From Patescibacteria group bacterium (lineage in GTDB: Bacteria > Patescibacteriota > Gracilibacteria > UBA1369): a DNA stretch of 64,000 nt. The DNA lies in NCBI GenBank assembly GCA_963169655.1, contig CAUJCM010000004.1, forward strand, positions 229,239-293,238. The letters run 5' to 3'. The position numbers and the translations under genes were made by a program. Positions 2,687 through 28,184 of the stretch are shown one piece after another (positions within the stretch are counted from its first letter, which is position 1; each line of letters opens with the position of its first letter). Below the pieces are notes generated by a model. The model had not been told where the DNA came from. It worked only from the letters and a program-made list of their open reading frames with translations, and did no database searches.

Positions 2687-2692
2687 TAACAA

Positions 2693-3118
2693 ATGATAAC
2701 TTTAATTATACAAACTATATTTGATAGAGCAGATTTAATTTTGCTGAGAGATGATAAAGTAATCAATTCTAAAAGCTGGAAATCTCAAAGAGATGAGATA
2801 AAAACTATTTTACCTGCAATTGAAAATTTATTGAAAGAAGAGGGCTTGGAATTTTTTGATTTAAAGAGAATTGTGATAACAGTTGGTATTGGTAATTTTT
2901 CTGCTACTAGAATTGGGGTGACAATTGGCAATACTTTAGCCAAAACTATCAATTCAGATATTTTTTCATTAAAATTGGAAGAAGAAATTAGTACTGAGGA
3001 ATTAATTAAATTAGTTATTGAAAAATTTAAAAATAATTGGCAGAAAGTGGATTTAGCAATTCCAGAATATCGTAGCGAGCCAATGATTTCTCAATCTAAA
3101 AAGAAAAAATTTACTTAA
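2693..3118 (+). CDS. tsaB: tRNA threonylcarbamoyladenosine biosynthesis protein TsaB (short form)
   Basis: A 141-residue ASKHA-fold protein with the TsaB signature near residues 65-76 (GIGNFSATRIGV, compare GPGSFTGLRIG in TsaB) followed by a helix (GNTLAKTIN). TsaB is the non-catalytic partner of TsaD in making t6A37 on ANN-decoding tRNAs. Full-length TsaB is about 220-230 residues; here only the N-terminal lobe is present, which fits the reduced proteins seen in Candidate Phyla Radiation bacteria. The C-terminus is basic (SQSKKKKFT). The gene sits 5 bases upstream of rsmI, another RNA modification gene. The truncation could also mean a paralog with another role. Confidence 0.7.
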   Translation: MITLIIQTIFDRADLILLRDDKVINSKSWKSQRDEIKTILPAIENLLKEEGLEFFDLKRIVITVGIGNFSATRIGVTIGNTLAKTINSDIFSLKLEEEISTEELIKLVIEKFKNNWQKVDLAIPEYRSEPMISQSKKKKFT

Positions 3119-7000: not shown

Positions 7001-7258
7001 CCATGTTGCTCCTATGCTAGAAAAAGAGATTGGAGCATCTTTTTCAGGTGATAGGTATGTGACTTGAGGCTCATAGAAAAAAAACTCGTTAGCTGGGATT
7101 TCCTGATAAAATGGTTCGACTGGCTTGGATGGAATTTTTTCATTCTGTTGAGCAAAAACTTGTGGAACAATAATTAAAAAAGCTGTAAAAAATGTAATTA
7201 TAAATGATGGAAATTTTACTGTTCGTTGATATTTGTTTTGTAAGATTGGATTTTTCAT
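4058..7258 (-). CDS. Secreted N-acetylmuramoyl-L-alanine amidase fused to a SpoIID/LytB domain
   Basis: A 1066-residue secreted cell-wall enzyme. A signal peptide spans about residues 16-37 (ending VFAQQ). An amidase_2/PGRP domain covers roughly 256-470: RSEWGADES, IHHTATT (first zinc His, near 327), GYNYIIDQQGNIYEGR, GHKDFMSTACPG (second His near 448, Cys near 455). Ig/CARDB-like segments follow (about 490-720), then a Pro/Thr/Ala linker near 736-760. The C-terminus (about 866-1060) is a SpoIID/LytB domain: LPMEDYLRGLAEEND with the candidate catalytic Glu, AMQIIARTYA, and GHGVGLSGCGANTMAQQG. SpoIID enzymes cut glycan strands already stripped of peptides by an amidase, so both steps sit in one chain. 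An extended -10 promoter lies 51 bases upstream of the start. Confidence 0.88.
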   Translation of the reverse strand: MKNPILQNKYQRTVKFPSFIITFFTAFLIIVPQVFAQQNEKIPSKPVEPFYQEIPANEFFFYEPQVTYLSPEKDAPISFSSIGATWEQYTPPETSILLEIRLKNKGKFSSWYQLEPSIDEFNILDNSKVSSFLTTNIADGYQYRVTLKSQENSKTPIFDNLKFTFINGGSPSEKTSLLIASKDQANTINEPKIDFKKISNPNNSLVKSTTQVSQAESITVFPDSVKKTIKVPVKTYTNNSINTSNFGPGTAVTASGLDIITRSEWGADESLRLYKGDLKDPELIKLPDDYYTRFANELQESLRVESDSNGNQLTWPLSYPQEIKKIVIHHTATTKDLDDPQKAIRDIYMWHTLSRGWGDIGYNYIIDQQGNIYEGRFGGEMVVGAHSGTGNFGSIGIALLGNYQDNEPPEEVLNALVKLIKNKAQLYNIDTTGSSMFRGEFTYNILGHKDFMSTACPGEKLYDLIPLIRELSKVSTTNTLTSAKSSLFAWNSDIPPIISINPSSKKMGNLTIKNSSTQVLSKDIYFKVKNNQNAKTFLRNSDNILTGILAKDLQPGESATVQVLLNTTVTSGSGLIELQPIINGSLQEGSIAFGLKVNTPPPKVKYDYKLMSIIYSKETLNKGDIVTATVKLRNIGIQPWLNNGENKVTLGADKPRDHQNNLLVTPSNRYATLQESRVASGEIGTFTFQIKVPEKDGVYKEYFTPVVEGIQWMNNNDSYILIQIGNTGVNNNTNVQNPAPANPTPTPTPAPAPASVPAPVNPTPIGSNTVNIATTTLNTNAYLRPIRIDLSYRGNPATIASSGPYSLYQGAVKITDLNANQKATVKYENGSFIITVDNTKTYNISAKPRFIPASNSILRIDNWDRKTTSNITYNQFRGVLEAIVYDGELHLVNELPMEDYLRGLAEENDREPVEKIKAMQIIARTYARFYMEVAKKFPGAPFDLNDDPQYSQKYLGYSYEINMPLTVAQVKATEGMYVTFQGKLIKTPYFSRSNGKTTISAKDKWGWTDTPFLQSVDDSFCNSNEYAGHGVGLSGCGANTMAQQGYTYDQIIKHYYSGVEITKSSN

Positions 7259-7308
7259 TATTAAACTATGCTTTAAAAAAAAGTTTCTTTAATTTATTTA
7301 TTCTGTAA

Positions 7309-7317
7309 ATTATATCA
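7309..7317 (-). promoter_or_regulatory. Extended -10 promoter of the amidase-SpoIID gene
   Basis: On the minus strand the sequence reads TGATATAAT, a perfect TATAAT with the TGn extension, about 50 bases upstream of the start codon at 7258. No good -35 box is seen at 16-18 bases, which is acceptable for an extended -10 promoter. Confidence 0.55.
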
Positions 7318-7446
7318 TAAAATTTAACACAAAATAATGGGCTATGGGCTTAATGAGCTTGACAGTTAAAAATAGTTGTTTTTGTGGGTATTGTAAAATG
7401 AAATAATATTTTTAAATAAAATTTTTGCATAATGATAATCCACTAT

Positions 7447-7480
7447 AGCCCTGCGGGATGCCACCCCTCAAGAGGGGAAT
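7447..7480. repeat. Dispersed palindromic repeat, family 1 (partial copy)
   Basis: This copy reads AGCCCTGCGGGATGCC followed by the conserved ACCCCTCAAGAGGGGAAT end. It lacks the CCACCCCGTC start found in the other copies. It lies just downstream of the terminator of the 7537-10956 surface protein gene. The CCCCTC-aa-GAGGGG arm is self-complementary. Confidence 0.75.
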
Positions 7481-7481
7481 T

Positions 7482-7517
7482 AAAAAAAATCCCGCTACTT
7501 ATTTTAGTAACGGGATT
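7482..7517 (-). terminator. Rho-independent terminator of surface protein A gene
   Basis: On the minus strand a 12-bp stem (AATCCCGTTACT / AGTAGCGGGATT, 7506-7517 with 7488-7499, one mismatch) with a six-base loop is followed by a run of eight U. It lies 20 bases past the stop of the 7537-10956 gene. A near-identical terminator follows the paralog at 11182-11215. Confidence 0.85.
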
Positions 7518-7536
7518 CTTCTCAAATATTTGTTTT

Positions 7537-10500
7537 TTATTTACCTCCAAGTAAAGCAGGATTTTCTTCGACTGCATCTTGGAAACGAGCAAGGAATCTT
7601 GCCATATCAGCTCTTGTTGCGTAATTTTGGATTGTTTTTGCATCAAACTCATTCTTTGAAATGATATTAAATTCAATTCCAAAGGCAATAGCTCTATACA
7701 TCCAAATTGTATCTGTATTATTTTTATAGGCTACTGCAAATGAAGGCATATCAATATCCTTAACTTTTGGAGTATAACCAATTACAGAAGAAACTCCTTG
7801 GTCTAATAATGCAAATACTTCTATATATTTAATTCTATCTAGTGGAGCTAAAGTGACTTCACTAGTATTAATATCTTTTCTTCCTCGAAGGATACTAGAT
7901 GAGTAAACAGCTTTAAAGTTACTCAATTCTTCAGGGGATGCAATAGCAATTTCTTTAGCATCAGCAAGAGTTTTATACCAATCATTTGGTAAATTTTTAA
8001 CCTTAATCTTAGAATTTAATTTTAATTTTTGAATAGTATCTGCAATTATTCTTTGAGTGAATAAAGCTGTTGTATATCTAACCTGAGGAGTTTCTGGAGC
8101 TTGATCACTACGAGCTACTGTACTTCCGAGTGACTGTAAATCTTTACAATATGCTGAGTTTGGACCTTCTGCCAAATAGAATGTTTTATCTCCTACAATA
8201 CAAGGTTGTGTTGATGGTTTTGTTTCCTTCAATTCAGGTTGAGTTGGTGTTTGATAGTAAGTGTAATAATTGTTTACCACAGTTGGGACTTCAATAGTTT
8301 TTTCAACTATCTTTTCAACTGGCACCTCTTTCACTACTACTACTTCTTCTTTATTTTGGGAGGTTGGAACTGGTTTAGGGGTTGGAGCTGGCGTTGGAGT
8401 TGGGGTTGATGTTGGAGTTGGGGTTGATGTTGGAGTCTCTACTTCATCAGCTAAATCTATGTTTTGAGACTGAGGGACTGCTTTAGGAATAATTTGAACT
8501 GTATATGATGAAATTGGAGAGTTTTCTACTTTTTTATCTTTACCAATTGCAAATAATTTAACTGTATAAGTCGTATATGCTTTTAACCCTAAACTATCTG
8601 TTTTCTCAAAATTATTGTTAAATACCAATCTTGTAATATTTGAAGTAGCATCAATACTTGGTTCAAAAGATACAAAATCATTTAATCCTTTGCCAGTAAA
8701 ACTGTTATTTGAAATAATATCTGAAGTTTGTGTCTTGAAACTATTACCTTCTATACTTAATCTAAACCCTCCTAAATTAGTAGGTAAATTTAATTTTGAT
8801 CTTAAGTTTTGACAGATATTATCAACTATACCTAACTCTTCTTTTCCTTTAAATGCAGATAACTGAGTTTTGAGTGTGGTAGGTGTAGGATTATTTAAAT
8901 CATAAGTTAAAGATGAAGGATTAAATTTAATATTATCAACTTCAGTACATTTTGTAATAACTGGTTTAGAAGTACTGTCAGTTAATGTTATTGCATAATA
9001 TGCATTTCCAATCTCTTGGCTATTCTCTGAGTTAATAAGCTTAATAGTATATTTTTTATTAAGATCTAATTTAAGTCTATCTTTAATTGACTGATTAATT
9101 GTAGTTGTAAATTTCAAACCTTGTTTATCTTCTGTTACTTTTAACAAACCTTCAAATCCTTCTTTTCCATCTATTAAATCTTTTAAATTAATAGATGGAA
9201 ATTGATTTGACTCATCATATAATCCAACTAAAGTTTTTTGTGGACCTTCTTCTGAAATATTTAATACTTTCAAATCATCAGCACACATTCCATCAGGAAT
9301 TCCATCATATTTTTGTTCTTTTTTATCGTACATTAATAAGGATGTAGTCTTAGAATCATTTTTAGCTACATCTAATGATAAAGAGTTAGGGTTAAATTCT
9401 ACTTTACCAATGTCCTTACATAGAATTATGAGTTGCGATTGTCCTGGATCTTTTGCTTTAAATTCTGCCTGGAAAACTAGAGCTGATTTTAGGTATCCTT
9501 TAGCATTTATTTGATATCCATCCTTGTACTCAGCTTTACTATAAGCAGATTGTGAAATTGTAACTGGTAATTCATAATTAGACTTGAGTGCTCTATTTCC
9601 ATTAATATTATTTGCTGATTTATCAGTATATTCAACTCCTTCTTCAAAATTATTTTCTGTTTTATAAGAAAAGTCTACATTAACTCCATTTACAGTGGCT
9701 TTTAGACTATCTACAAAATTAGCACAAATTGGATCATTATTTTTACTTTCTATAACTAGAGTATTTTTGATTTCTCCATTTTCTACTACAACTTCTGCAT
9801 CTTTAAATGTAGCTTTTACATCGTTTGTACAACTTTTAACTTCTTCATTTATTTTGAGTGTATAACTGGCAACTGGTTTTTGAGAAACCTGATTATTTTC
9901 ATCTACTACATATAATTCTACCGTATATTTTTTGTTAGCATCTAGCCATTTTAATAAACTGTCTAAATTATTAGTAAATTTAAATCTATTAATCTTATCG
10001 AGATTAGCTGTACTTGATGAAATTAAAATACTGTCATCATATAATCTAGTATTTTTATTTTCTGGTGTAATGAGTTGAGGTTTAGCAGCGTCTCTATTAT
10101 TTTCATCTTTCACTGCTAATTTAAATCCAGTTATTTTATTGGGTAATCCAAAGTTCTGTTTTGAAGAATCACAAATTTGCTGACCACTAAATCCAATCTC
10201 TCCTGAATTAGTATAAATAGACAGGGAAGTATCTTTACTTTTAATACTATCATTTTTATCAAAAACCAGTTCACTTGAGTCAAATTTAATTTGATTAATA
10301 TCTACACAGCTATCATCTTCAACTATAATTTTATAGGATGCAAAGATATAATCATAAGGGATAGTTTGACTACTTGCTGTAATATTATTATTAATATCTT
10401 TTATTAGAGCTTTTAAGTCTACTTTATATTCTCCAGCTATGGCTGAAAGTGGAAAATCATTTTCAGTGGATAGAGCTTTAAGATTATGGTTAAATGAAAT

Positions 10501-10956
10501 CGTTGAGCCTTTTTCTAACTTGAAAGTTAAAAATCCTTTAAACAATGATGTTGGAGGATTATTATATAAATAATTATCTACTTGAGTTGGAGTATCTGTT
10601 GCACCTATTTTGCTAACTAAAACTTGAAAACCTAGAGGAACAATTAAAGTATCTTCTTGGTTAAAATAAATTTTTAATAAATCTTTTAAACAAGGGTTAG
10701 CTATACTAAAGCCATTTGTGCCTCCATCTTTTGTTTTTAAAATTAAATTATTTTTTAAAGAATCATTTCTATTAGTATTATTAAATACTATACTTGGATT
10801 TTCAAAGTATATCTTTTCCATTCCAACACAATTAGACTGATTCGTAATATCTCCTTTAAATAATCCTCCATTTTGATTGGAATAAACAGCGAGTCCTATG
10901 ACTCCTACGACTAAAAATGCACCTAGTGCAATTAGCCATTTCTTTATATTTTTCAT
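7537..10956 (-). CDS. Large surface protein A with paralogous C-terminal domain
   Basis: An 1139-residue exported protein. The N-terminus (KKWLIALGAFLVVGVIGLAV, residues 5-24) is a signal peptide or signal anchor and is almost identical to that of the next gene upstream (11237-14065). Residues 40-830 hold about four similar modules, each starting near a motif of the type C-x-D-x-x-x-I-K-F-D/N-P-S-S-L and ending SYTV/YTLKI, so they are probably Ig-like beta domains. A Thr/Pro linker sits near 845-865, and then comes a conserved C-terminal domain of about 220 residues (CIVGDKTFYLAEGPNSAYCK to NPALLGGK). That domain has SLH-like pieces (RYTTALFTQRI, ATRADMARFLARFQ) and may attach the protein to the wall. 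It has its own promoter and terminator. I know no named family for it. Confidence 0.8.
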   Translation of the reverse strand: MKNIKKWLIALGAFLVVGVIGLAVYSNQNGGLFKGDITNQSNCVGMEKIYFENPSIVFNNTNRNDSLKNNLILKTKDGGTNGFSIANPCLKDLLKIYFNQEDTLIVPLGFQVLVSKIGATDTPTQVDNYLYNNPPTSLFKGFLTFKLEKGSTISFNHNLKALSTENDFPLSAIAGEYKVDLKALIKDINNNITASSQTIPYDYIFASYKIIVEDDSCVDINQIKFDSSELVFDKNDSIKSKDTSLSIYTNSGEIGFSGQQICDSSKQNFGLPNKITGFKLAVKDENNRDAAKPQLITPENKNTRLYDDSILISSSTANLDKINRFKFTNNLDSLLKWLDANKKYTVELYVVDENNQVSQKPVASYTLKINEEVKSCTNDVKATFKDAEVVVENGEIKNTLVIESKNNDPICANFVDSLKATVNGVNVDFSYKTENNFEEGVEYTDKSANNINGNRALKSNYELPVTISQSAYSKAEYKDGYQINAKGYLKSALVFQAEFKAKDPGQSQLIILCKDIGKVEFNPNSLSLDVAKNDSKTTSLLMYDKKEQKYDGIPDGMCADDLKVLNISEEGPQKTLVGLYDESNQFPSINLKDLIDGKEGFEGLLKVTEDKQGLKFTTTINQSIKDRLKLDLNKKYTIKLINSENSQEIGNAYYAITLTDSTSKPVITKCTEVDNIKFNPSSLTYDLNNPTPTTLKTQLSAFKGKEELGIVDNICQNLRSKLNLPTNLGGFRLSIEGNSFKTQTSDIISNNSFTGKGLNDFVSFEPSIDATSNITRLVFNNNFEKTDSLGLKAYTTYTVKLFAIGKDKKVENSPISSYTVQIIPKAVPQSQNIDLADEVETPTSTPTPTSTPTPTPAPTPKPVPTSQNKEEVVVVKEVPVEKIVEKTIEVPTVVNNYYTYYQTPTQPELKETKPSTQPCIVGDKTFYLAEGPNSAYCKDLQSLGSTVARSDQAPETPQVRYTTALFTQRIIADTIQKLKLNSKIKVKNLPNDWYKTLADAKEIAIASPEELSNFKAVYSSSILRGRKDINTSEVTLAPLDRIKYIEVFALLDQGVSSVIGYTPKVKDIDMPSFAVAYKNNTDTIWMYRAIAFGIEFNIISKNEFDAKTIQNYATRADMARFLARFQDAVEENPALLGGK

Positions 10957-10991
10957 TTTTATTTTGTTATTAGAAATAAAATTATCATTAT

Positions 10992-11019
10992 ATTATACAC
11001 TATTTTTAATTTTGGTCAA
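10992..11019 (-). promoter_or_regulatory. Promoter of surface protein A gene
   Basis: Reading the minus strand, TTGACC (11014-11019), a 16-base spacer and a perfect TATAAT (10992-10997) lie about 36 bases upstream of the ATG. The same promoter occurs at 14101-14128 in front of the paralog, within a duplicated block of about 247 bases. Confidence 0.8.
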
Positions 11020-11067
11020 AGCATTGGTTTAAGAAAATTTTATTTTCATTTATAGTCTCTAAGTAAT

Positions 11068-11099
11068 CCACCCCGTCAGCCCTGCAGGCTGCCACCCCT
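11068..11099. repeat. Dispersed palindromic repeat, family 1 (truncated copy)
   Basis: It starts CCACCCCGTCAGCCCTGC and forms the hairpin CAGCC-ctgca-GGCTG, but breaks off after CCACCCC. A second, complete copy starts four bases later, so the element looks interrupted by, or tandem with, another copy. Confidence 0.8.
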
Positions 11100-11102
11100 T
11101 GT

Positions 11103-11148
11103 CCACCCCGTCAAATTCTTCGAATTTGACACCCTCTAGAGGGGAATT
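11103..11148. repeat. Dispersed palindromic repeat, family 1 (complete copy)
   Basis: It runs from CCACCCCGTC to GAGGGGAATT. The first hairpin is GTCAAATTC-ttc-GAATTTGAC, different in sequence from the CAGCC/GGCTG arm of other copies but still perfectly paired. The second arm is CCCTCTAGAGGGG. Confidence 0.85.
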
Positions 11149-11181
11149 TTGTGCTCCGGAGAAATTATAAAGTTGCCCATC
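11147..11181. repeat. Dispersed repeat module 2, copy 1
   Basis: It begins TTTTGTGCTCCGGAG and ends GTTGCCCATC, directly abutting the family 1 copy. Related sequence is found at 49539-49571 and 49656-49682, the latter again just after a family 1 copy. Confidence 0.6.
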
Positions 11182-11215
11182 AAAAAATCCCGCTACTAGT
11201 TTAAGTAACGGGATT
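11182..11215 (-). terminator. Rho-independent terminator of surface protein B gene
   Basis: A minus-strand stem of 12 bp (AATCCCGTTACT / AGTAGCGGGATT) with a short loop is followed by six U, 22 bases after the stop of the 11237-14065 gene. It matches the terminator of its paralog at 7482-7517. Confidence 0.85.
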
Positions 11216-11236
11216 TTAACTTAAATATCTATTTTT

Positions 11237-14065
11237 TTATTTTCCTCCAAGTAATTTAGGATTTTTTTCGATAGCATTTTGGAATCTAGCCAAGAATCTT
11301 GCCATATCTTCTCTTGTTGCAAATTCTTGAATTGTATTTGAATTGAATTCATTCTTTGTAATAATGTTAAATTCAATTCCAAAGGCTATAGACCTGTACA
11401 TCCAAGCTGTATCTGGATTATTTCTGTATGCTAATGCAAATGGAGGCATACTACTGTCACTTACACTTGGTGTGTAGCCAATTACTGAAGTAATTGATTG
11501 ATCAAGAAGGGCTAAGATTTCAATATATTTAATTCTACCTAATGGTGCTAAAGTGACTGCTCCAGTTTTAGGATCTTTTCTTCCTCTTAAAATTCCTGAA
11601 GCATAAACTGCTTTGAAATTAGCTATTTCCTCATCACTCGATGCTTCAATTTCTTTAGCATCTGTAAGTGATTTATACCAATCATTTGGTAAATTCCTTA
11701 CCTTTATTCTTGTATTAAGTTTTAGTTTGGTAATTGTATCTGCCACAACTCTTTGAGCAAATAGAGCTGTAGTATATCTTACTTGTGGGGTTTCAGGAGC
11801 TTGATCTACTCTGGCAATTTTTTCTCCTAAAGCTTGTAAATCTTTACAGTAAGATGAATCAGGACCTTCGGCTAAGTAGAATTCTTGATCACCTACTTTA
11901 CAAGGAGTAATTGACACTTTTGTTACTACTGGGGTTGGAGTTGAAGTTGTGGTAGTGGTTGTGGTTGGTGTTGGAGTCGTAGTTGTTCCAGTGCCTTTAT
12001 TGCCAGTATCGTTGTTGTTTGTGCCAGAACCTCCTTTGTTGCCAGTGTCATTATTGCCTAAATCATCATCACTTTGAATTTGACTTGTCTTGAATGAGAA
12101 ACTAGCTTCTGCTTTACCAAAGCTCAATGAATATGTTTTTCCTTTTTCGATTCCTTGTGGTAAATGAGCTGGGTCAAGAGCAAATTGGATAAATTCCTTC
12201 TTCATTGTAATACCTAAAAAATCATTATAATAAGTTTTTTCATTGAGTTCGTCATAAGGGATTACTATTTTTGTATCAATAATTTTTGGAGATAAGGATG
12301 ACTCAATCAAGGTTTTTAAATTGCTGTCATTTTTATTGTCTCCAAACCATTTAATTAAACTAGAATAACAAGCTCCATCTATACTCAATCCTACTGGATT
12401 ATTATTTTTATCATAGAATTGATATGTGAAAGTAATTTTGTCAGTTGCATCTTTCTGAGAAGTTGGTGAAAATTTTGCAGAATCGAAAGCTATACATCCT
12501 GCTTTATCTTCAATATTATTGTCTTCTTGATTAAATTGATCTGCTTGCTCACTATTAGGATCTTCATCGTTACTATCAGGAATACTTTGAGCTTTATCGT
12601 CTTTTATTTTAAATAAATAAGCTAAATTTAATCTCTCATCATTTCCTTTTAATCCAATAATCTCCATTACATATAGAGTATTAGGATTCAATAATACATC
12701 TTCTGCTAATTTTAATTTATGAGTGGAGCTATCATAATATGTTTTAAAATTATTAACTAAAGCATAAGATCTACCGGATTTAGTGTTATCACTTGCTATG
12801 CTCTTTCTAGATATGAAACTATTTTGATTATATTTACTTGGATCTAAATTAAATGTATACAAAGTCTCTTTACCTTTTGTTTTGTTATATTCATCAAATA
12901 ATTTTATATTAAATTTAAATTGAGTAATTGTATCTTCACATAAAGCTACTCCCTTCTCCTTACTAACTACATTTAGAATATTTGTGATGGAATCTGATTG
13001 GCTACTTGAGTCATATTGCATAATCTTTGCATCTGGGGGGCTTTGTTTTTCTGTGAAAGAATAGTTATTTAGAGTTGGATAAATCTCATCTGTACATTTT
13101 GTCTCTATAATTGGTTCTACTTTCTTTTCTTCATCCTGAACATCAAAGCGTAAATTCATTAATATAGTTGGTGTACTATCTACTACATAACCAATACCTA
13201 AATCATAAATTTTATTTGTATCGTTTAAATTAATATTTAGATCTTTTAAATGAAAATAATTAATAGTTTTTGTAGGATCAATTTCTATTAATCTCATTGA
13301 TTTTAAAGAATCTAAAGGATTATTAGAATCTTCAGCAGCAAAAGCTTTTTCAAGATTCATAAAGTTAAATGAACTCTTGAATGTTCCTAAATTTTGTAAT
13401 TGGTTTGATAATCCATTTTGTAGCATTGTGCCTCCTAATGGTACTGTTCCAGGAGTTAGAGCTTTTCCATTTTGTGTTTTTGTTGATCCTGAGCCTGTTT
13501 GTGGTGCAGTCATACCTTCAAGACCAGAGAAATTTGGTGCCAAGTCATTTGATGTTGAACTACCTGCTATACCAAAATTAGTAGGGTTAACTTTTTCAAG
13601 TGTACCAGTTAGTGTATCATCTTCTTTAATAGAAAGAACAGGAGTTTTAACTATATCATTGCTGGGTAAAGTAACTATTGGTATCGTCTGGTTAATTGAC
13701 AAACTACTTTTATCAAGTTCAAATTTAAATAATAAATCATTGGTATCTTTTTTATTAATAATAGTAAATGCTGTATCCTTACCTGTGTTAATTTTAATTC
13801 TTCCATTATCAACATCATCTTTCCAGACTGATAATTTTGAATTACCTAACTCAGAGTTTTGTTCGCTTTTTATTTCATCAAAAACATAACTACTAAATGA
13901 AACTTTAGTGTTTTGGCTTTCAGAAAAAGGAATTTCTTGAGTAACTTCCTGTGTCGCCGCCCCCTTAAACAATCCTCCACTTTGATTGGAATAAACAGCG
14001 AGTCCTATGACTCCTACGACTAAAAATGCACCTAGTGCAATTAGCCATTTCTTTATATTTTTCAT
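11237..14065 (-). CDS. Large surface protein B, paralog of surface protein A
   Basis: A 942-residue exported protein whose first 35 residues equal those of surface protein A except for one N/S change near residue 29 and the end of the block. The middle (about 40-690) has only distant similarity, with Ig-like stretches, an inserted Gly/Thr/Asn-rich segment, and a DSNDEDPNSEQADQFNQED acidic stretch. A Gly/Asn/Thr-rich linker with poly-Thr is near 665-710. The last 220 residues (CKVGDQEFYLAEGPDSSYCK to NPKLLGGK) are strongly similar to the C-terminus of protein A, including RYTTALFAQRV and ATREDMARFLARFQ. Same-strand tandem arrangement, same promoter and same terminator show that the pair arose by duplication. 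Function is unknown; a surface layer or adhesive role is inferred. Confidence 0.8.
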   Translation of the reverse strand: MKNIKKWLIALGAFLVVGVIGLAVYSNQSGGLFKGAATQEVTQEIPFSESQNTKVSFSSYVFDEIKSEQNSELGNSKLSVWKDDVDNGRIKINTGKDTAFTIINKKDTNDLLFKFELDKSSLSINQTIPIVTLPSNDIVKTPVLSIKEDDTLTGTLEKVNPTNFGIAGSSTSNDLAPNFSGLEGMTAPQTGSGSTKTQNGKALTPGTVPLGGTMLQNGLSNQLQNLGTFKSSFNFMNLEKAFAAEDSNNPLDSLKSMRLIEIDPTKTINYFHLKDLNINLNDTNKIYDLGIGYVVDSTPTILMNLRFDVQDEEKKVEPIIETKCTDEIYPTLNNYSFTEKQSPPDAKIMQYDSSSQSDSITNILNVVSKEKGVALCEDTITQFKFNIKLFDEYNKTKGKETLYTFNLDPSKYNQNSFISRKSIASDNTKSGRSYALVNNFKTYYDSSTHKLKLAEDVLLNPNTLYVMEIIGLKGNDERLNLAYLFKIKDDKAQSIPDSNDEDPNSEQADQFNQEDNNIEDKAGCIAFDSAKFSPTSQKDATDKITFTYQFYDKNNNPVGLSIDGACYSSLIKWFGDNKNDSNLKTLIESSLSPKIIDTKIVIPYDELNEKTYYNDFLGITMKKEFIQFALDPAHLPQGIEKGKTYSLSFGKAEASFSFKTSQIQSDDDLGNNDTGNKGGSGTNNNDTGNKGTGTTTTPTPTTTTTTTSTPTPVVTKVSITPCKVGDQEFYLAEGPDSSYCKDLQALGEKIARVDQAPETPQVRYTTALFAQRVVADTITKLKLNTRIKVRNLPNDWYKSLTDAKEIEASSDEEIANFKAVYASGILRGRKDPKTGAVTLAPLGRIKYIEILALLDQSITSVIGYTPSVSDSSMPPFALAYRNNPDTAWMYRSIAFGIEFNIITKNEFNSNTIQEFATREDMARFLARFQNAIEKNPKLLGGK

Positions 14066-21018: not shown

Positions 21019-21037
21019 GAATTTGACGCTAAAATTT

Positions 21038-21394
21038 ATGAATAAAACAATTTCAATATTGATGGTTATTGTTTTACCTTTTATAGTTGGTTGTAAAAAT
21101 CAAGATTTTCAATCTGGATATCAATGGGCACAGAATAATGATATTCAATCTTTTGATGTATGTCAGAAAGAATTTGGAACTGGAGATAAGGAAGATGGAT
21201 GTAATGAATATATTAAAAAAAATTATACAGGATATCAAAAGTTTAAAGGAAAAGATTGTACAGAAGACTGTAGTGGTCATATAGCTGGTTATGAATGGGC
21301 AAAAAAGAAAGACATTAGTACAATAAATTCTTGTAATGGTAATTCAATTTCTTTTAAAGAAGGATGTGAATCTTATGTAAGAGAAAACTATTAA
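21038..21394 (+). CDS. Small cysteine-rich lipoprotein with two internal repeats
   Basis: A 118-residue lipoprotein. I start it at the ATG at 21038 rather than an upstream TTG, because this gives a compact signal peptide (NKTISILMVIVLPFIVGC) with a lipobox cysteine at residue 19. The mature part contains two related units: SGYQWAQNNDIQSFDVC...DGCNEYIKKNY and AGYEWAKKKDISTINSC...EGCESYVRENY, joined by DCTEDCSGH. Each unit has G-Y-x-W-A and paired cysteines, suggesting two small disulfide-bonded domains. It is anchored on the outer face of the membrane. Function is unknown. It lies between tRNA-Gly and a second small lipoprotein, probably as one transcript. Confidence 0.75.
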   Translation: MNKTISILMVIVLPFIVGCKNQDFQSGYQWAQNNDIQSFDVCQKEFGTGDKEDGCNEYIKKNYTGYQKFKGKDCTEDCSGHIAGYEWAKKKDISTINSCNGNSISFKEGCESYVRENY

Positions 21395-21757: not shown

Positions 21758-22543
21758 TTAAATTTTTAAATGAATTGGGTCTGTTATGCCAATTATTACT
21801 TTATCAATATTTTTTCTTACTACATCTTCCATGACTGTTTGTATTAGTAAATCCTTTGTTTTTATACCTTTTTTCTTTTTAAATTCTTCTAGTTTTTCCC
21901 AGAAAACATTATCTACTTTATGACTCCTTTGATCTTGTGCATTAAAATTATAATTTCTTTCCTTTAGAATCATTCCATGATAAAAGATACTTCTTACCCA
22001 AATTTCTCCAGAAAAATTGGATATATATGAAGGCATTGGTAAACTGATTATGTTATATGGTATTTGAATGCTATCAAAATATTTAGGTACCTTACCAGGA
22101 AAATACTCTGGTAATGAAACCCCTATTTTCTGAAAATGTCCATCTTTTTTGTAAGGTTCTAATTCCTTGCAAATATAATTTATATCAAAAGATTGATGCC
22201 AATTATGTAATTGAAAAGTATGTATATTTTGAGAGGTATAACGTTTTAAGCAATTATATATTTTTTCTTTAATATATTTTGAAGGATAATATTCTCTTAT
22301 ATCCAGTTTTGATGTCATTAAATCTGGTTTTGTAATTGCTGGTAATTTTGTTGCAATTTTTAAAACGCCATCTTTAAAGTTACCAAGCTCGGCTTCGACT
22401 TTTCCATCTCCATACACCATGGCAGTATCATACTGATTAAAACCGTCTTCAAAAGCTTTTTTTATTATTACTTTAATGTCAACTTTTTTTCCAAAATCTC
22501 CACTCATGCCCCAAGTACCAATAATTATTTTGTCTTTATTCAT
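21758..22543 (-). CDS. Aldo/keto reductase family protein
   Basis: A 261-residue TIM-barrel oxidoreductase of the AKR superfamily. The catalytic tetrad is complete: Asp39 and Tyr44 in YDTAMVYGDGK, Lys66 in ATKLP, and His113 in LHNW. The N-terminus IIIGTWGMSGDFG is the typical first strand. It should reduce a carbonyl with NADPH. The C-terminal cofactor-binding end (KVIIGITDP) is present but short. It is the last gene of a three-gene minus-strand operon, overlapping the radical SAM gene by eight bases. The substrate is unknown; the linkage suggests that it acts on the product of the radical SAM enzyme. Confidence 0.85.
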   Translation of the reverse strand: MNKDKIIIGTWGMSGDFGKKVDIKVIIKKAFEDGFNQYDTAMVYGDGKVEAELGNFKDGVLKIATKLPAITKPDLMTSKLDIREYYPSKYIKEKIYNCLKRYTSQNIHTFQLHNWHQSFDINYICKELEPYKKDGHFQKIGVSLPEYFPGKVPKYFDSIQIPYNIISLPMPSYISNFSGEIWVRSIFYHGMILKERNYNFNAQDQRSHKVDNVFWEKLEEFKKKKGIKTKDLLIQTVMEDVVRKNIDKVIIGITDPIHLKI

Positions 22544-23780
22544 AGTATCGAGTTTCTATTATATTAGCTAAAGTTTTTAATATAGTAGTCCTTGCTGAAA
22601 AAGGCAAACTTTCAAATGCAGGTTTAGAAATTACTTTACCATCTGGAGTTACTTGTTTAATGTCAATACTGATATTTAATGATTGAAGATCTTCTCTAAC
22701 TTTTGCCAAGGTTTTGTTTAAGTCTTCTAATTTTAGCTTAGAAGCCATGCAGGTCTCTCTTTGTTCTTTAGAACATTTAGAAATATGACAATCATTTTCA
22801 TTAATTGCATAGGTTATGAGTCTATCAGAACACTTAAGAATATGAGCTAAAGCACAAGAAGAATGTTTAACTATAGGGATATGAGGTATAAGCTCTTGAC
22901 AGATTGACTTTACTTCTTCGTATAAATCATCCGGTAAATCCTTATGATTATCTTTTTTTTCTAAATCTGAGGGCCAAATTAAATTTCTATTTTGCAGACC
23001 ATATTCAATTCCCTCTGTCCATCTCAATCCACCAATAACAATTGCAGATACAGTTTTGCTGTTTAAATCTTTGGATGCCTGTTTTATAGCCGTCTTAATT
23101 TTTTCTGCTGTTGTCCCCCATTGTTTAACTAAAGGTCTTAAGTATAGAATAATTTTTGCCCCGAGAATACTTGCATTTTTTAGATTTAAAAATCTGTTAT
23201 TTTGAATTGGCTCTATTTCCTTATTTAAGGCTCCATAAGTAGGTGAGAATATTAGTGATTTTATCTTGGGTGTGATTTGAGCTATGCGTGGTAAAGCCTG
23301 ATTAGGAATACCAGCTTTGGTTACAATCCAAACTGGATTTTTAAAATTTCGTTTTATTAACTCATCTATTATTGTAAAAGTACTATTTAATACTTGGCCT
23401 ACTGCTAGTGGCTCAGTACTTGTGGTGCCAATACTTATTATAGTTTCATCTTTGATAAATATAGGAGTTCTAATAAGTGCTTCTACTATTTGAGCTTCAG
23501 TAAATTTTTTATAAGGTTCTGCTTTAATGGGCATATAACCATCTTTATCTAAATTTCTTTTTGAACCCTGCACATGGCAATAAGCACACTGCCAGCGGCA
23601 CCCTTTCCATAAGTCTATACTTAAAGATGAACTTGCAATACTAATACAAGAAAGAGGATCGTTTTCATCTTCTACCAATGATGCAAAATTTTCTTTGAAA
23701 AGTTCAAACTCTTGTTTAGTAACAGGATTTTTAACTATCACTTTACTTTGTTGATTAAGAATTTCTAATTTTTTCTTCAT
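22536..23780 (-). CDS. Radical SAM protein with extra cysteine-rich region
   Basis: A 414-residue radical SAM enzyme. The SAM cluster motif is C61-RWQ-C65-AY-C68 (CxxxCxxC) in IDLWKGCRWQCAYCHVQG. The GTTSTEPLAVGQ region corresponds to the GGE-type segment, and the barrel continues to about residue 300. A second cysteine group (C294, C309, C317, C331, C336, C344) follows, including HSSCALAHILKC and CHISKC, and could bind an auxiliary Fe-S cluster. The layout is similar to spore-photoproduct-lyase-like (SPL-like) radical SAM proteins, but the substrate cannot be told. The start ATG overlaps the end of the nucleotidyltransferase gene by four bases (translational coupling). Confidence 0.85.
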   Translation of the reverse strand: MKKKLEILNQQSKVIVKNPVTKQEFELFKENFASLVEDENDPLSCISIASSSLSIDLWKGCRWQCAYCHVQGSKRNLDKDGYMPIKAEPYKKFTEAQIVEALIRTPIFIKDETIISIGTTSTEPLAVGQVLNSTFTIIDELIKRNFKNPVWIVTKAGIPNQALPRIAQITPKIKSLIFSPTYGALNKEIEPIQNNRFLNLKNASILGAKIILYLRPLVKQWGTTAEKIKTAIKQASKDLNSKTVSAIVIGGLRWTEGIEYGLQNRNLIWPSDLEKKDNHKDLPDDLYEEVKSICQELIPHIPIVKHSSCALAHILKCSDRLITYAINENDCHISKCSKEQRETCMASKLKLEDLNKTLAKVREDLQSLNISIDIKQVTPDGKVISKPAFESLPFSARTTILKTLANIIETRYYE

Positions 23781-24505
23781 ATAAACTTACTTTTTAGATA
23801 TTCACACAGTTTGTCCAATTCATCTAATTTTGTATTTTTAATTAAGTCAAGCGATGTTTGCAATAAAATTTCAATATCTTTATTGTATACTAATGATTTT
23901 GATCCTTGAAAATATTTTCTTTGTTGAGAATAAGTTAGACGAATGATAAGAAATAGTATTTGTCCTTTTAATATTAATATTGAATTTAAATCAGCTCTTT
24001 TGATAGCTTGTTCCAATTGAGTAATACGCATTGATAAATCCTTTTTACAATAAGAAATAATGTAAGTGCGTAAACTTTCAGGATAAGGTATTACTAATTC
24101 CTTTAAACATTTAAGATCCTCTTCAGGAGTATCACTAATTATTTTCCCATTAGCTATATCTCCTAATAAACCTTCAGGGCACTCTGCCCCTATTGCCCAA
24201 GACTTATATATAGGGTCAATAGCTCCTAATAAAACATTATTTACTCTATTTTTGAGCTCTAAAATAGTACAAGGTGAAATGCCTATTTCAATTTTTTCAG
24301 AAGTGAATCTTAATGAACCGTCAATTTGCTGTTTATATCCATCCATTTCTTTTAAAATCTCTTTTATATGATGCTTGTTACTTAAAAGGATTAAATCAAG
24401 ATCTTTTAACATATCTGAATCCTTTTGAACAGCAGATCCTACCATTAATATTCCAGAATCTTTATCTATATTACAAATCTCTTTTGTGAAAAGATCTACT
24501 TCCAT
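23777..24505 (-). CDS. Nucleotidyltransferase-fold protein
   Basis: A 242-residue protein with an N-terminal nucleotidyltransferase (pol beta) signature: VGSAVQKDSDMLKDLDLILL at residues 22-41, with GS and the D-x-D pair (Asp35, Asp37), and a third acidic candidate in EKIEIGISP (near residue 73). The C-terminal half is helical (about 140-240), like the helical domains of minimal nucleotidyltransferases and aminoglycoside nucleotidyltransferases. It would transfer NMP to a small molecule, tRNA or protein. It is the first gene of the operon with the radical SAM and AKR genes, and its start lies 53 bases from the divergent AlaRS-like gene. Confidence 0.7.
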   Translation of the reverse strand: MEVDLFTKEICNIDKDSGILMVGSAVQKDSDMLKDLDLILLSNKHHIKEILKEMDGYKQQIDGSLRFTSEKIEIGISPCTILELKNRVNNVLLGAIDPIYKSWAIGAECPEGLLGDIANGKIISDTPEEDLKCLKELVIPYPESLRTYIISYCKKDLSMRITQLEQAIKRADLNSILILKGQILFLIIRLTYSQQRKYFQGSKSLVYNKDIEILLQTSLDLIKNTKLDELDKLCEYLKSKFI

Positions 24506-24558
24506 AATTATAAAATATTAAGTATTTTTGACTAAAATTTAATTTATTTTTTAATAAA

Positions 24559-25731
24559 ATGCTAGATAAAATAGAAAACACTTATAAATCAGATAAACTT
24601 ATAGAAAAACTTAATGTAAGACTGGGGTTTAATTTATTTCATTTTCTAAATGTAAAACCTGAACCTGAATATAGTAATTATAGTGCTGTATTTATGAGTG
24701 CAATGCAAAAGCCTTTAATTTGGCTCTATAAAGGTATTACCCCCGAAAATATTTCTTCCTCAATATCTACTGGTTTTTGTATACGATCTGAAAAAGGGTT
24801 TACTAACGCAGGTTCTAGTAATAGACATTTAAAATGTTTTGAAATGCTAACTATAGCTGGACAAATGCATGAAGAGCAAATGTTAGCCTTAATTGTCCAA
24901 CTTTTAAAAGATAATATGCCAAATAATGTTAATATAATAGCACATGTATACCCTAATGATAGAATTGCTCAAAACTTTTTTATGAAACATAACATTTCAT
25001 TTATATTAAAAGATGAATGTTATTTTAAAGAACCTGATAAAACTGATCGGGAGGGACATCGAGTTGAATTAAACTTGATGGTTCAAAATGTAGAGGAAGA
25101 AATTTGTTGGGAGATTTTTAACTGTGTTTTTATAACAGCTACCAATTATGGGGAAAATAAGCTTAATCTTCCTTTGGTTGAAGCCTCAGGGAGTCTAGAA
25201 AGATTCTTAGTTTTCTCAGAAGGAAAAGATCATGTTCTTAAAACAAGTAGATTTGATATAGATTCTGTTACTGCAATTTTACAAAATGTAAATATTAACG
25301 TTATATATAAATTCACCGATCTTTTAAGAACGGTTATTATCTTAAGTCAAAGTGGTTACAATTTAGGCCAGAGTATAAGAAAATCTGATAAGTTGCAAAT
25401 ACTTTACACTACCGCTTGTAATGAATTTATGCTGCATTGTCTGATAAATAATATCTCCTTTGAGATAATCATAAACTTGATACAAAGAGATTTTGAATTA
25501 ATAAAAAGTTTTGGTTATGATTGTGAAGAAATTGGACTTCAAAGATTGATTCTAGAGTTGGCAGAAATATTTCAAAAGTTAAATAAAAAAATTGAAAATA
25601 TTAAAAACTATATTAGATCTAATGTTGCTAAACTTGGCACAAACAAATCCATAGAAAGAGCTCTTAGACTTCATGATGGAGATGCAAAAAGACTGCTACC
25701 TATTATAGAAAAATTAAATAAAGATATATAG
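24559..25731 (+). CDS. Alanyl-tRNA synthetase catalytic-core paralog without editing domain
   Basis: A 390-residue class II synthetase-like protein. Against AlaRS I can line up SAVFMSAMQK with the LLFTNAGM strand (42-51), FCIR with QRCVR (73-76), RHLKCFEML (89-97) with motif 2 RHHTFFEML, AHVYPND with VTVYESD (128-134), WEIFNCVF (184-191) with EIWNIVF, and VEASGSLER (207-215) with motif 3 VDTGMGLER. Spacings between these landmarks are within a few residues of E. coli AlaRS. The ATP-contacting arginines of motifs 2 and 3 are kept. The GGKHNDL and GPCGPC loops are replaced and the substrate-contacting Asp is Glu208. Helical middle-domain sequence follows; editing and C-Ala domains are absent. 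It probably activates an amino acid for something other than ordinary tRNA-Ala charging. Confidence 0.7.
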   Translation: MLDKIENTYKSDKLIEKLNVRLGFNLFHFLNVKPEPEYSNYSAVFMSAMQKPLIWLYKGITPENISSSISTGFCIRSEKGFTNAGSSNRHLKCFEMLTIAGQMHEEQMLALIVQLLKDNMPNNVNIIAHVYPNDRIAQNFFMKHNISFILKDECYFKEPDKTDREGHRVELNLMVQNVEEEICWEIFNCVFITATNYGENKLNLPLVEASGSLERFLVFSEGKDHVLKTSRFDIDSVTAILQNVNINVIYKFTDLLRTVIILSQSGYNLGQSIRKSDKLQILYTTACNEFMLHCLINNISFEIIINLIQRDFELIKSFGYDCEEIGLQRLILELAEIFQKLNKKIENIKNYIRSNVAKLGTNKSIERALRLHDGDAKRLLPIIEKLNKDI

Positions 25732-26292
25732 ATTTAATAATACTATTAGGATATACTTTGGTATTAAAATATAAAAAAAACAAGTCCAATACAATATTTG
25801 ATAAATGAAGAAGGAGACATATATTTAAACAACTGTCTTTATGTTTCTAACGATGAAGAAAGATTGGAGTGTTAATTAATAAAAGTTTTTAAAATTATTA
25901 ACTATATCTTCAAGAGAGTTTATGAATAATATGTTTTTAATAATTTATATTTATATGGTCTAAAATAATCCAAAATACTTAATTGTAATATTAAAAGAAT
26001 GAGATATATTAAAATTTTTAATAGATAAACTTAAAAAATTAATATAATATTTGGATAATTATTATTTTAAAATATTATTGGTATTAAGTGTAAGAAAAAT
26101 AGCTTAATAATTCTAGAGGGCCTTATAATTAGAAATGAAAAAAGTGTCTATTTTAAATTTATTAAATTAGTTTTATTAAGGTTAACATTTAATCAACTTT
26201 TAAAAAGTTTGATAATTTCATTTAACAAGTAATCTGTTTAAATATGGCTTCTTTAATGATATCTTCTGTTCATATTAATTAAATCAAAATTT
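25732..26292. other. 561-base gene-free stretch, possible decayed gene
   Basis: The stretch is extremely AT-rich and has stops in all frames. The only protein-like piece is an open frame at 25768-25875 reading SPIQYLINEEGDIYLNNC and more, which lacks a start codon and follows an A8 run; it may be the tail of a decayed gene. I see no tRNA, terminator of note or repeat family here. Confidence 0.4.
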
Positions 26293-26919
26293 ATGGAACT
26301 TTTACTCACATCTTCAGGTATTTATGATCAAAGTATTTTTAGTTTCATTAAGAAAAGACTTGCTATGCTGATAAACCCAAGGATTGCTGTTTTACATACG
26401 ATTAGGAAGCCAACTGATAAAGTATGGCTTGCTGAACATGAAAAAGAGTTAAGCCCTTTGGGTTTAGCTTATGATTTTATTAATATATCTGAAAATCAAG
26501 ATCTTTCTGATAAAAACTTTTATGATGTATATTATGTTGTTGGTGGAAACACATTTTATATTTTAGATAGACTCAAGAAAACTGGACTTTTTGATATTAT
26601 TAAAAAATCTATTAATCAAGGAAAATTATATATAGGTTTGAGTGCAGGCAGTATTATTGCTGGTCCTGACATAAAAATTGCTGGCTATGGTTGTAATGCA
26701 GATAAAAATGATATTGGACTTAAAGATTTTTCAGCTCTCGGTGTAGTTGAATTTAATATTTATCCACATTATCAAATTGATGATGAAAAATTTGTAAAAG
26801 AATTTTATAAAGATCAAAATAAGCCTGTTATAACTTTAGCTGATAAACAAGCATTAATAGTAAGTAATGGTAAGCTACAATTAGTAGGAAATGGACAAAG
26901 TTTTAAAATTGGGTTTTAA
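26293..26919 (+). CDS. Peptidase E-like serine peptidase (family S51)
   Basis: A 208-residue protein of the S51 family, a class-I-glutamine-amidotransferase-like fold. The nucleophile elbow GLSAGSIIAG (Ser near residue 118) is clear, preceded by YYVVGGNTFYILDRL, which is the conserved GG-N-T-F motif. The His candidate is in FNIYPHYQ. PepE releases Asp-Xaa dipeptides in the cytosol; other S51 members are cyanophycinases. There is no signal peptide. The 3' end overlaps a convergent truncated phosphatase gene by 17 bases. Length is close to E. coli PepE (229). Confidence 0.85.
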   Translation: MELLLTSSGIYDQSIFSFIKKRLAMLINPRIAVLHTIRKPTDKVWLAEHEKELSPLGLAYDFINISENQDLSDKNFYDVYYVVGGNTFYILDRLKKTGLFDIIKKSINQGKLYIGLSAGSIIAGPDIKIAGYGCNADKNDIGLKDFSALGVVEFNIYPHYQIDDEKFVKEFYKDQNKPVITLADKQALIVSNGKLQLVGNGQSFKIGF

Positions 26920-27292
26920 AAAAAATTTTAACTTCTTGAAAACTTTTGCCATTAAGATGTTTTCTATTTTCTAAAGTTTTAGACTCATATGTTATCCAAT
27001 TGACTTCACTTTCTTTTTTACCTTCTATATCTCCAGCACTTCTTTCTCTAACTAATTTTTCTATTTCAATAGGAATATTTAATTTTTGAGAAATGATTTT
27101 AGCGGTTTGATATGCTCTATTAAGATCACTAGTAATTATTTTAGAGATAAAAATATTATTATTATTAAAAAAATTAGCAATTTTTTGTGAATATTTTATG
27201 CCATTATCATTTAATTCTCCCCCGATAGAACCTAAAATGATATTTTCTACACTTTCTTTAGTTTCTCCATGTCTAATTAAATAGATTTTCAT
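26903..27292 (-). pseudogene. Histidine phosphatase, C-terminally truncated
   Basis: A 129-residue protein beginning IYLIRHGETKESVEN, the RHG motif of the phosphoglycerate-mutase-like phosphatases (nucleophile His8), with SDLNRAYQTAKIISQKL and LVRERSAGDIEGKKESEVN, the acid-site region. Full-length members have about 200 residues and a second catalytic His in a late V-x-x-H-G motif; here the chain stops right before that region, at the point where it runs into the convergent peptidase E gene. It is therefore probably inactive, or a fragment created by a past deletion. The N-terminal half is intact and well conserved. Confidence 0.65.
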
Positions 27293-27560: not shown

Positions 27561-28184
27561 ATGTCTTTAAAAGGTATCAATAAAACTATTATTGCTTTGA
27601 TTTTATCAGACTGTTTTATGCTAACAGGTTTTGGTTTGATATCCCCAATTTTTGCTATTTATATCAATAACCATATTGATGGTGGGAGTATTTTTATGGC
27701 TGGGATGGCAAGTACAATTTTTTGGATAGTTCGTAGTATGGTGCAATTACCTTTGTCTGTCCATGTCGACAATTTCCCAAATCGTACAGGGCTACTTTTA
27801 ACTGGAGTATTTTTGACAGTGCTTGTTCCTTTTTTATATATGTTTGCTCATAATATTTGGATGATCTTTTTTGCTCAAATTATTTATGGTGTTGGAAATG
27901 GTCTCTCTTACCCAACTTGGGTTGGAATATGGACTGATCATTTAGATAAAGGAAGAGAAACGTTTGAATGGAGTGTTTATTCCACGACGGTTGGGCTTGG
28001 TACTGCAATTTCTGCAACGATTGGTGCTGCTATCGCTGATTTTATTGGATTTTACTATACTTTTATGTTGGTAACATTCTTATCAATCTTGGGACTTTTA
28101 ATTCTTTTCTTCCATACCCAGAGATTTAAACCTCAGAAAAAATTTAATATCAACTTAAACAATTCCTTTACTAAAAAAGATTAA
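27561..28184 (+). CDS. Half-length MFS transporter (six membrane segments)
   Basis: A 207-residue membrane protein with six hydrophobic segments (about residues 10-34, 42-68, 77-96, 98-122, 144-165, 167-190). The sequence matches the N-terminal half of an MFS permease: LTGFGLISPIFAIYI in helix 1, DNFPNRTGLLLTG in the loop 2-3 position where MFS proteins carry G-x-x-x-D-R-x-G-R, and a helix 4-5 YGVGNGLSYPTWVGIW. A standard MFS has 12 helices and about 400 residues; this one ends with a basic tail after helix 6 and a proper stop, with the next gene 40 bases on. It may work as a dimer or be a remnant. Confidence 0.75.
   Translation: MSLKGINKTIIALILSDCFMLTGFGLISPIFAIYINNHIDGGSIFMAGMASTIFWIVRSMVQLPLSVHVDNFPNRTGLLLTGVFLTVLVPFLYMFAHNIWMIFFAQIIYGVGNGLSYPTWVGIWTDHLDKGRETFEWSVYSTTVGLGTAISATIGAAIADFIGFYYTFMLVTFLSILGLLILFFHTQRFKPQKKFNINLNNSFTKKD

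Follow-up and report, generated by a model that had tools for sequence, protein, structure and literature searches.

The window, meaning the whole 64,000-nucleotide stretch of DNA analyzed here, comes from a bacterium with a one-million-base genome and contains five clustered genes, which encode an alanyl-tRNA synthetase (AlaRS)-like protein, an aldo-keto reductase (AKR), a radical SAM enzyme, a nucleotidyltransferase (NTase), and an S51 peptidase. The features, with positions numbered along the window, are as follows:

21758–22543, minus strand: AKR, a member of the constant trio (PF00248, E 1.7e-18)
22536–23780, minus strand: constant-trio radical SAM enzyme carrying a CX3CX2C motif and four invariant C-terminal cysteines
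23777–24505, minus strand: NTase of the constant trio, with an aminoglycoside-nucleotidyltransferase (ANT) fold
24506–24558, no strand: divergent intergenic gap of 53 bases, a presumed promoter region
24559–25731, plus strand: AlaRS-like mini-synthetase (AlaRS-I) without an editing or C-Ala domain
26293–26919, plus strand: S51 peptidase (PepE/cyanophycinase family; PF03575, E 9.9e-30; GxSAG), a proposed self-protection enzyme

The AKR and radical SAM genes overlap by 8 bases and the radical SAM and NTase genes by 4 bases, and the AlaRS-like gene diverges from the trio across the 53-base gap, which confirms the layout given in the sequence-only reading (an overlapping trio head to head with an AlaRS-like core). 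No clear exporter is encoded in the window; a partial MFS protein of 207 aa lies at 27561–28184. A scan of positions 25700 to 26300 for a peptide gene returned just open reading frames of 22 to 28 aa without support, and the small reading frames in 25732–26292 are unconvincing as a peptide product gene.

Related loci were sampled by the radical SAM protein alone, which gave 18 loci besides the window in Patescibacteria, Rickettsiales, Bacilli, and Clostridia. Short partial matches (L021 to L023), loci repeating the window, L007, or L011 (L024, L025, L030, and L033), and a distant radical SAM protein (G263/L031, E 1.6e-37) for which no match to AKR, NTase, synthetase, or S51 appeared were excluded. 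In a leave-one-out test that kept near-copies of a locus in the profile and included the fused L017/L018 proteins in the NTase and AKR sets, 18/18 of the other loci had both an AKR and an NTase gene no more than 3 kb from the radical SAM gene. Gene fusions within the trio were also seen (NTase-AKR and radical SAM-NTase), and the trio distances correlated across 16 of the 19 loci (rho 0.74, 0.49, and 0.56, with values as high in 1, 7, and 0 of 2000 permutations), the near-copies L008, L010, and L018 being omitted from this and from the motif comparison. The genes thus constitute one conserved system, as had been suggested from the window alone. Conservation of the neighbors, the check proposed for that suggestion, fails among close relatives, where the AlaRS-like protein was found in 0/147 and the radical SAM protein in 0/194 other genomes, but holds across very distant ones. 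This combination indicates a patchy accessory cluster rather than chance neighbors.

Several vehicles and contexts for such a cluster were considered, none with convincing support. Insertion at tRNA-Gly was discarded because the last 20 bases of the tRNA occur once in the window and a step in G+C content is absent, and no tRNA gene is constantly present beside the cluster across loci. Scans of viral contigs and phage records returned no relative, and eight plasmid records had 22 to 26% identity, with other contexts in the three that were inspected. PADLOC models gave no convincing match to a defense system: eight of nine proteins were unmatched, and the S51 protein was a marginal CARF match (E 0.0047).

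The trio is constant in its presence and, for two of its members, in its motifs. AKRs use a catalytic tetrad of Asp, Tyr, Lys, and His, and the D..Y, K, and H motifs are kept in all 16 loci compared; the window AKR passes the PF00248 cutoff. The CX3CX2C motif of the radical SAM enzyme is likewise found in 16/16 loci compared, with the window protein scoring under the PF04055 cutoff, and C309, C331, C336, and C344 are invariant in 26 aligned sequences. The enzyme resembles the PA0069 family through a weak match (NF033668, E 1.6e-4). A weak match of its C terminus to the N domain of pyrrolysyl-tRNA synthetase (E 0.075) was rejected, and a search of the radical SAM family profile against the PDB yielded nothing up to E 1 and did not recover that match. 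Two PHROGs families of unknown function match the AKR and the radical SAM protein. The NTase has an ANT-type fold, that of enzymes adenylating small amino-sugars, with a GS...DxD metal site. Unlike ANT(4'')/kanamycin nucleotidyltransferase, to which it is 12% identical, it lies in a biosynthetic-looking operon, and the motif is lost in 8/16 loci compared. Nucleotidyl transfer is therefore not a universal step of the system, unless it is carried out by something else.

Profile searches and the predicted fold both identify the 390-aa protein as an AlaRS paralogue, upholding the earlier assignment. The class II catalytic core and the middle domain of AlaRS are present, and the protein stops after this core at 390 aa, compared with 638 aa for the alaS product of the same genome; the reported absence of the editing and C-Ala domains is likewise borne out, the protein being the core alone. 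It shares with AlaRS the motif 2 and motif 3 arginines, whereas the GP pocket segment before a conserved acidic residue, the motif 3 Asp (which is replaced by Glu), and the RR-RR tRNA motif are lost or changed. Among 14 alaS controls, the motif 3 Asp and RR-RR are present in 14/14 and the GP segment in 13/14 (GS in one). In AlaRS-I, the motif 2 Arg is kept and the pocket segment and RR-RR motif are gone in 9/9 rows; in AlaRS-II, the pocket is kept in 5/5 rows (the AlaRS tree took in 9/15 AlaRS-I and 5/7 AlaRS-II rows). A four-residue deletion in motif 2 relative to Escherichia coli AlaRS was discarded as a sign of lost tRNA contact because it also occurs in the genome's own alaS and in 12/13 other alaS controls. 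The AlaRS-I group offers an example from nature of a synthetase core that is probably no longer used for tRNA charging. The window protein is the most divergent member of its group and could serve another function.

A synthetase-like gene adjoins the trio in all 19 loci, window included, and its type differs between them. An AlaRS-like module is present in 14/19 loci, the window among them, a class I LysRS-like module in two, an IleRS/MetRS-like core with an extra MetRS in one (L019), and, in two (L011 and L035), a carrier-protein ligase of the SerRS-like type accompanied by carrier and ATP-grasp genes. The AlaRS-based system envisaged earlier is amended in that the module is exchangeable and not always of the AlaRS type. 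AlaRS-II, the 528-aa LysRS in L020, and the additional MetRS in L019 appear to be near-normal synthetases. The gene content of L011 and L035, which includes genes for a carrier protein and for ATP-grasp, condensation-like, and MFS proteins, looks like that of complete biosynthetic clusters. Nucleotide-handling neighbors recur as well: NUDIX proteins in L004, L005, and L013, a metallophosphatase in L020, and MazG in L035.

A peptidase gene accompanies most loci, with S51 in 13 of the 19, S66 in two (L017 and L018), and neither in the fetched flanks of the remaining four (L005, L007, L010, and L019). The window S51 gene (26293–26919) is the only one in its genome; in L035, the S51 gene is 6.9 kb from the radical SAM gene. 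The 13/19 loci compare with 0.46 expected, and 7/11 lineages with 0.29 expected, for a 16-kb span and rounded genome sizes, loci of one lineage not being independent. The genes of the four-gene system proposed earlier do belong together, and the system has at least one part more, a peptidase. Both peptidase families include enzymes (S51, MccG; S66, MccF) that hydrolyze the carboxamide bond of aminoacyl-nucleotides and confer self-immunity (PMC9239234). Nucleotide substrates are not singled out by these matches, since S51 and S66 peptidases also cleave dipeptides and cell-wall peptides and the matches are family level (window S51, PepE, E 1.4e-18; L017 S66, muramoyltetrapeptide carboxypeptidase).

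Because the S51 and S66 families are known to inactivate aminoacyl-nucleotides like those of microcin C, we propose a natural-product cluster with peptidase self-protection. Tentatively, and with real room for doubt, we regard the five genes as a member of a patchy cluster family making a small amino acid–nucleotide compound, with attachment of the amino acid assigned to the AlaRS-like protein and its removal, for self-protection, to the S51 peptidase; the product and every reaction are inferred from genes, predicted folds, motifs, and co-occurrence. Under this proposal, the AKR and the radical SAM enzyme would build a nucleotide-like amine, joined by the ANT-fold NTase at loci that retain its motif. 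The mini-synthetase would form an aminoacyl-AMP and then move the amino acid onto this amine instead of onto tRNA, and a swapped module would supply another amino acid at each locus (Ala, Lys, Ile/Met, or that of the carrier-protein ligase). At loci with a second, near-normal synthetase (AlaRS-II, second class I LysRS, or extra MetRS), this enzyme could be a resistant copy of the target or could provide aminoacyl-tRNA. By mimicking an aminoacyl-adenylate, the compound would inhibit the corresponding tRNA synthetase and so likely disturb protein synthesis, and the S51 peptidase would protect the producer by removing the amino acid again. Counting against the amino acid–nucleotide proposal are the loss of the NTase motif in 8/16 loci, the 4/19 loci without S51 or S66 in the fetched flanks, the other substrates of the S51 and S66 families, the lack of a clear exporter in the window, and the position of the window's AlaRS-like protein as the most divergent of its group. 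The earlier idea that four proteins make or attach a modified amino acid survives as far as a single system is concerned; an aminoacyl-nucleotide product fits better.

The genomes of Patescibacteria are very small, and the group is generally considered poor in secondary metabolites. It would be surprising to meet here a mobile biosynthetic cluster whose composition points to tRNA synthetases as its targets, and such a cluster would offer a handle on how Patescibacteria act on their neighbors. In its broadest form, the proposal describes a natural-product family in which an unchanging AKR/radical SAM/NTase set builds the warhead and the amino acid is selected by swapping entire synthetase cores, class I as well as class II (Ala, Lys, Ile/Met, and SerRS-like), while immunity comes from a matched second synthetase and an S51 or S66 peptidase, so that Patescibacteria would carry and pass on made-to-measure tRNA synthetase inhibitors, possibly against hosts or rivals; this extended version is speculative, and we consider it somewhat unlikely. 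If the core is constant and the synthetase modules are exchangeable, the amino acid, and perhaps the target enzyme, could be predicted from genes alone, and such clusters would be a guide to new antibiotics of the aminoacyl-nucleotide type.

The trio combined with a synthetase was not found described in the literature searched, which lay mostly or wholly outside subscription journals and preprints. Microcin C-type clusters (PMC9239234) share the S51/S66 peptidase, a nucleotide-related enzyme, and, with L011 and L035, an MFS protein. They differ in that a ThiF-like MccB is absent here (Pfam scan of seven window proteins around the cluster), no convincing reading frame for a precursor peptide was seen in 25700–26300, and the genes present are instead those of a synthetase-like protein, an AKR, a radical SAM enzyme, and an ANT-fold NTase. 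The amino acid:carrier protein ligases of the SerRS-like type (NF005479), one of which occurs in L011, likewise rely on a synthetase core for tRNA-independent activation of an amino acid, but they are SerRS related and load a carrier protein, whereas the window protein is AlaRS related. According to the sections of PMC9113183 drawn on here, in ascamycin (acm) and SB-203208 (sbz) an amino acid is linked to a nucleoside or to an amine resembling one, and dedicated synthetase-like genes stand beside tailoring genes as in our loci: two tRNA-synthetase genes beside acmE in acm and one self-resistance IleRS in sbz. Those sections describe Streptomyces sulfamate/sulfonamide chemistry and not the AKR/radical SAM/ANT trio, and the synthetases considered here vary in type between loci and are truncated. 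No sulfotransferase was seen in the general scan of the cluster neighbors.

Among the alternatives, a widened form of the sequence-only reading has the cluster making a modified amino acid or short peptide with no nucleotide part, the peptidase trimming or recycling a peptide. The ATP-grasp ligases, carrier protein, and condensation-like proteins of L011 and L035 and the S51 membership of the dipeptidase PepE are in its favor, but the ANT-type fold and the NUDIX, metallophosphatase, and MazG neighbors are not, and we judge it improbable, if worth keeping in view. That the synthetase-like genes are all resistant or decoy target copies, with the trio alone making an aminoacyl-adenylate mimic of the Ala, Lys, or Ile/Met type, would suit the three near-normal synthetases and has a precedent in the SB-203208 IleRS (PMC9113183). 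However, the only synthetase in the window's cluster is an AlaRS-I protein, which without pocket segment and tRNA motif could hardly stand in for AlaRS in translation, and the carrier-protein ligase of L011 and L035 is a biosynthetic type of enzyme; this explanation is unlikely.

A system that modifies tRNA or RNA, with the AlaRS-like protein putting an amino acid on RNA or on a modified base that the trio produces, draws on the AlaRS core fold, the recurrence of class I and class II cores, and the earlier analogy to synthetase paralogues, of which GluQ-RS and PoxA are examples. It is distinctly unlikely given the inconstant tRNA neighbor, the patchiness in close relatives, and the carrier protein, ATP-grasp, condensation-like, and MFS genes of L011 and L035, and it leaves the peptidase enrichment without a role. 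Still harder to sustain is a cluster that makes nothing and detoxifies a foreign aminoacyl-nucleotide antibiotic: S51 and S66 peptidases do give resistance (PMC9239234) and ANT-fold NTases include aminoglycoside resistance enzymes, but a radical SAM enzyme and an AKR together with carrier, condensation-like, and ATP-grasp genes exceed what resistance needs. Chance adjacency, to which the absence from close relatives might point, is already refuted by the 18/18 co-occurrence across phyla, the gene fusions, and the S51 enrichment.

The neighbors of the radical SAM gene are a fair test of co-occurrence because loci were picked with the radical SAM protein alone. With leave-one-out profiles, genes for the aldo-keto reductase (AKR) and the ANT-fold nucleotidyltransferase (NTase) were found ≤3 kb from the radical SAM gene in 18/18 loci other than the window (L004 to L020 and L035), and the same profiles found neither within 3 kb of the distant radical SAM gene of locus L031. 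The NTase and AKR are fused in a single protein in L017 and L018, as well as in eight related proteins (P0123 to P0130) that also contain an AKR domain and were retrieved through their NTase portion; in P0037, judged by eye, the radical SAM and NTase parts are fused. The pairwise distances of the trio proteins were correlated across 16 loci (rho 0.74, 0.49, and 0.56), with values as high in 1, 7, and 0 of 2000 permutations.

The synthetase accompanying this trio is exchangeable. An AlaRS-like core of ∼365 to 390 aa (AlaRS-I) is present in 14/19 loci, the window counted, and 7 of the 14 carry a second AlaRS-like core of ∼430 aa (AlaRS-II), which is split in L006 and truncated where the contig stops in L009. 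In L005, from Rickettsiales (1911-3108, plus strand), the AlaRS-like gene, which is of the window type, is split between two open reading frames, and the NTase, the radical SAM protein, and an AKR-NUDIX fusion are intact. Locus L004 encodes one class I LysRS-like protein, and L020 encodes two, whose genes flank the trio (5217-13499, plus strand), one of them being fused to a calcineurin-like metallophosphatase. In L019, from Dojkabacteria (6155-9095, minus strand), an IleRS/MetRS-like core of 394 aa, too short for a CP1 editing domain, and an extra 573-aa MetRS are encoded divergently from the AKR, with another MetRS elsewhere in the genome. Loci L011 and L035 possess a SerRS-like protein along with genes for a small carrier-like protein, an ATP-grasp protein, a condensation-like protein (weak match), and an MFS protein; for L035, the assignment of the carrier and ATP-grasp proteins was by eye. 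Elsewhere in 16/17 genomes there is another AlaRS frame (583 to 920 aa), and none was found elsewhere in the remaining one, G547.

The two AlaRS-like groups were compared in an alignment and tree of 28 rows (9 AlaRS-I, 5 AlaRS-II, and 14 alaS controls). All AlaRS-I rows fall to one side of a branch supported at 94/97, and a long branch leads to the window type; AlaRS-II is a single clade (100/100) beside the Patescibacteria-type alaS. The motif 2 arginine is kept in 28/28 rows. The controls retain the RR-RR motif and the motif 3 Asp in 14/14 rows and the GP pocket segment in 13/14; AlaRS-II retains the pocket segment and the motif 3 Asp in 5/5 and RR-RR in 4/5. AlaRS-I has lost both the GP segment and RR-RR in 9/9 rows and keeps the motif 3 Asp in 7/9, with Glu in the window protein and its homolog P0002. 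Given this pattern of losses and retention, and the roles of these segments in AlaRS, AlaRS-I seems to be a core no longer engaged in tRNA charging, and AlaRS-II seems to be a functional AlaRS core that lacks editing.

The cluster also includes a peptidase gene, which in the window is as follows:
26293-26919, plus strand: S51 peptidase gene, the only S51 of its genome

An S51 gene lies in the cluster in 13/19 loci, 1.4 to 6.9 kb from the radical SAM gene, versus 0.46 loci expected by chance (by lineage, 7/11 versus 0.29 expected; P about 9e-10). The GxSAG serine motif is kept in 12/12 S51 proteins examined. L017 and L018 have an S66 peptidase in place of S51, and neither family was found in the fetched flanks of L005, L007, L010, and L019, S66 being judged from the proteins scanned. 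According to Yagmurov et al. 2022 (PMC9239234), peptidases of both families, S51 (MccG) and S66 (MccF), cleave the carboxamide bond of aminoacyl-nucleotides and confer self-immunity. Mainly because two families sharing that activity replace each other, we propose that the product is aminoacyl-nucleotide-like. Both families also include ordinary peptidases, and the best score of the window S51 protein is to the dipeptidase PepE (E 1.4e-18), below the PepE cutoff. The S51 gene shares its final bases with a histidine phosphatase gene (26903-27292, minus strand; 129 aa, PF00300), which may belong to the cluster or not, as may the 207-aa partial MFS protein that follows it (27561-28184, plus strand).

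Under the proposed mechanism, the AKR, the radical SAM protein, and the NTase, where intact, would make a nucleotide-like amine, to which the synthetase module would attach an amino acid after activating it. The peptidase would remove the amino acid inside the producer, and a second synthetase, where present, would be a resistant target copy or a supplier of aminoacyl-tRNA. Nucleotide-handling genes nearby encode NUDIX (L004, L005, and L013), metallophosphatase (L020), and MazG (L035) proteins. Two observations argue against this mechanism: the NTase motif is lost in 8/16 loci compared, and among the proteins scanned a full-length MFS gene was present only in L011 and L035. Literature searches found no paper on the trio with a synthetase. 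By its likely working, we file the cluster family under aminoacyl-nucleotide natural products. We do not count it among microcin C clusters, which have a ThiF enzyme and a precursor peptide; the scan of seven window proteins around the cluster showed no ThiF enzyme, and no convincing open reading frame for such a peptide was seen in 25700-26300.

The cluster is missing from close relatives: the AlaRS-like protein was found in 0/147 others and the radical SAM protein in 0/194. The radical SAM profile matched 3/379 genomes of a phylum sample (the genome with the window, the L007 genome, and one distant relative) and 2/398 of a class sample around a Thermoactinomyces genome (that genome and G696). 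The protein database contained 204 homologs, and the 120 matches listed include entries named Bacillus thuringiensis, Priestia, Thermoactinomyces, Saccharibacteria, and Rickettsiales; the genome collection yielded 20 radical SAM loci, 17 with a match over most of the protein. This distribution suggests a horizontally moving accessory cluster. P0002 (AlaRS-like) and P0004 (radical SAM) are 69% and 72% identical to their window counterparts. The entries of both give the same longest contig, 58,163 bases, so the nearest relative probably carries both genes.

Directly behind a tRNA-Gly gene, the window encodes a small cysteine-containing protein (21023-21394, plus strand) with a lipoprotein-like N terminus by eye and no family over the cutoff. 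In L028 (6628-10125) and L029 (6643-10062), on Streptomyces plasmids, genes for distant radical SAM relatives (for L028, 24% identical across 306 residues) with a C-terminal cysteine pattern similar to that of the trio protein adjoin murA-like and class II aldolase genes, neighbors that recall nucleoside-antibiotic enolpyruvyl chemistry. In L027 (7881-12392), on a plasmid from Sinorhizobium, the gene for a distant radical SAM protein has exonuclease, AAA ATPase, and HD-domain genes as neighbors; Shedu and ABC-three-component genes occur in the region, and the radical SAM protein may belong to an unnamed defense system.
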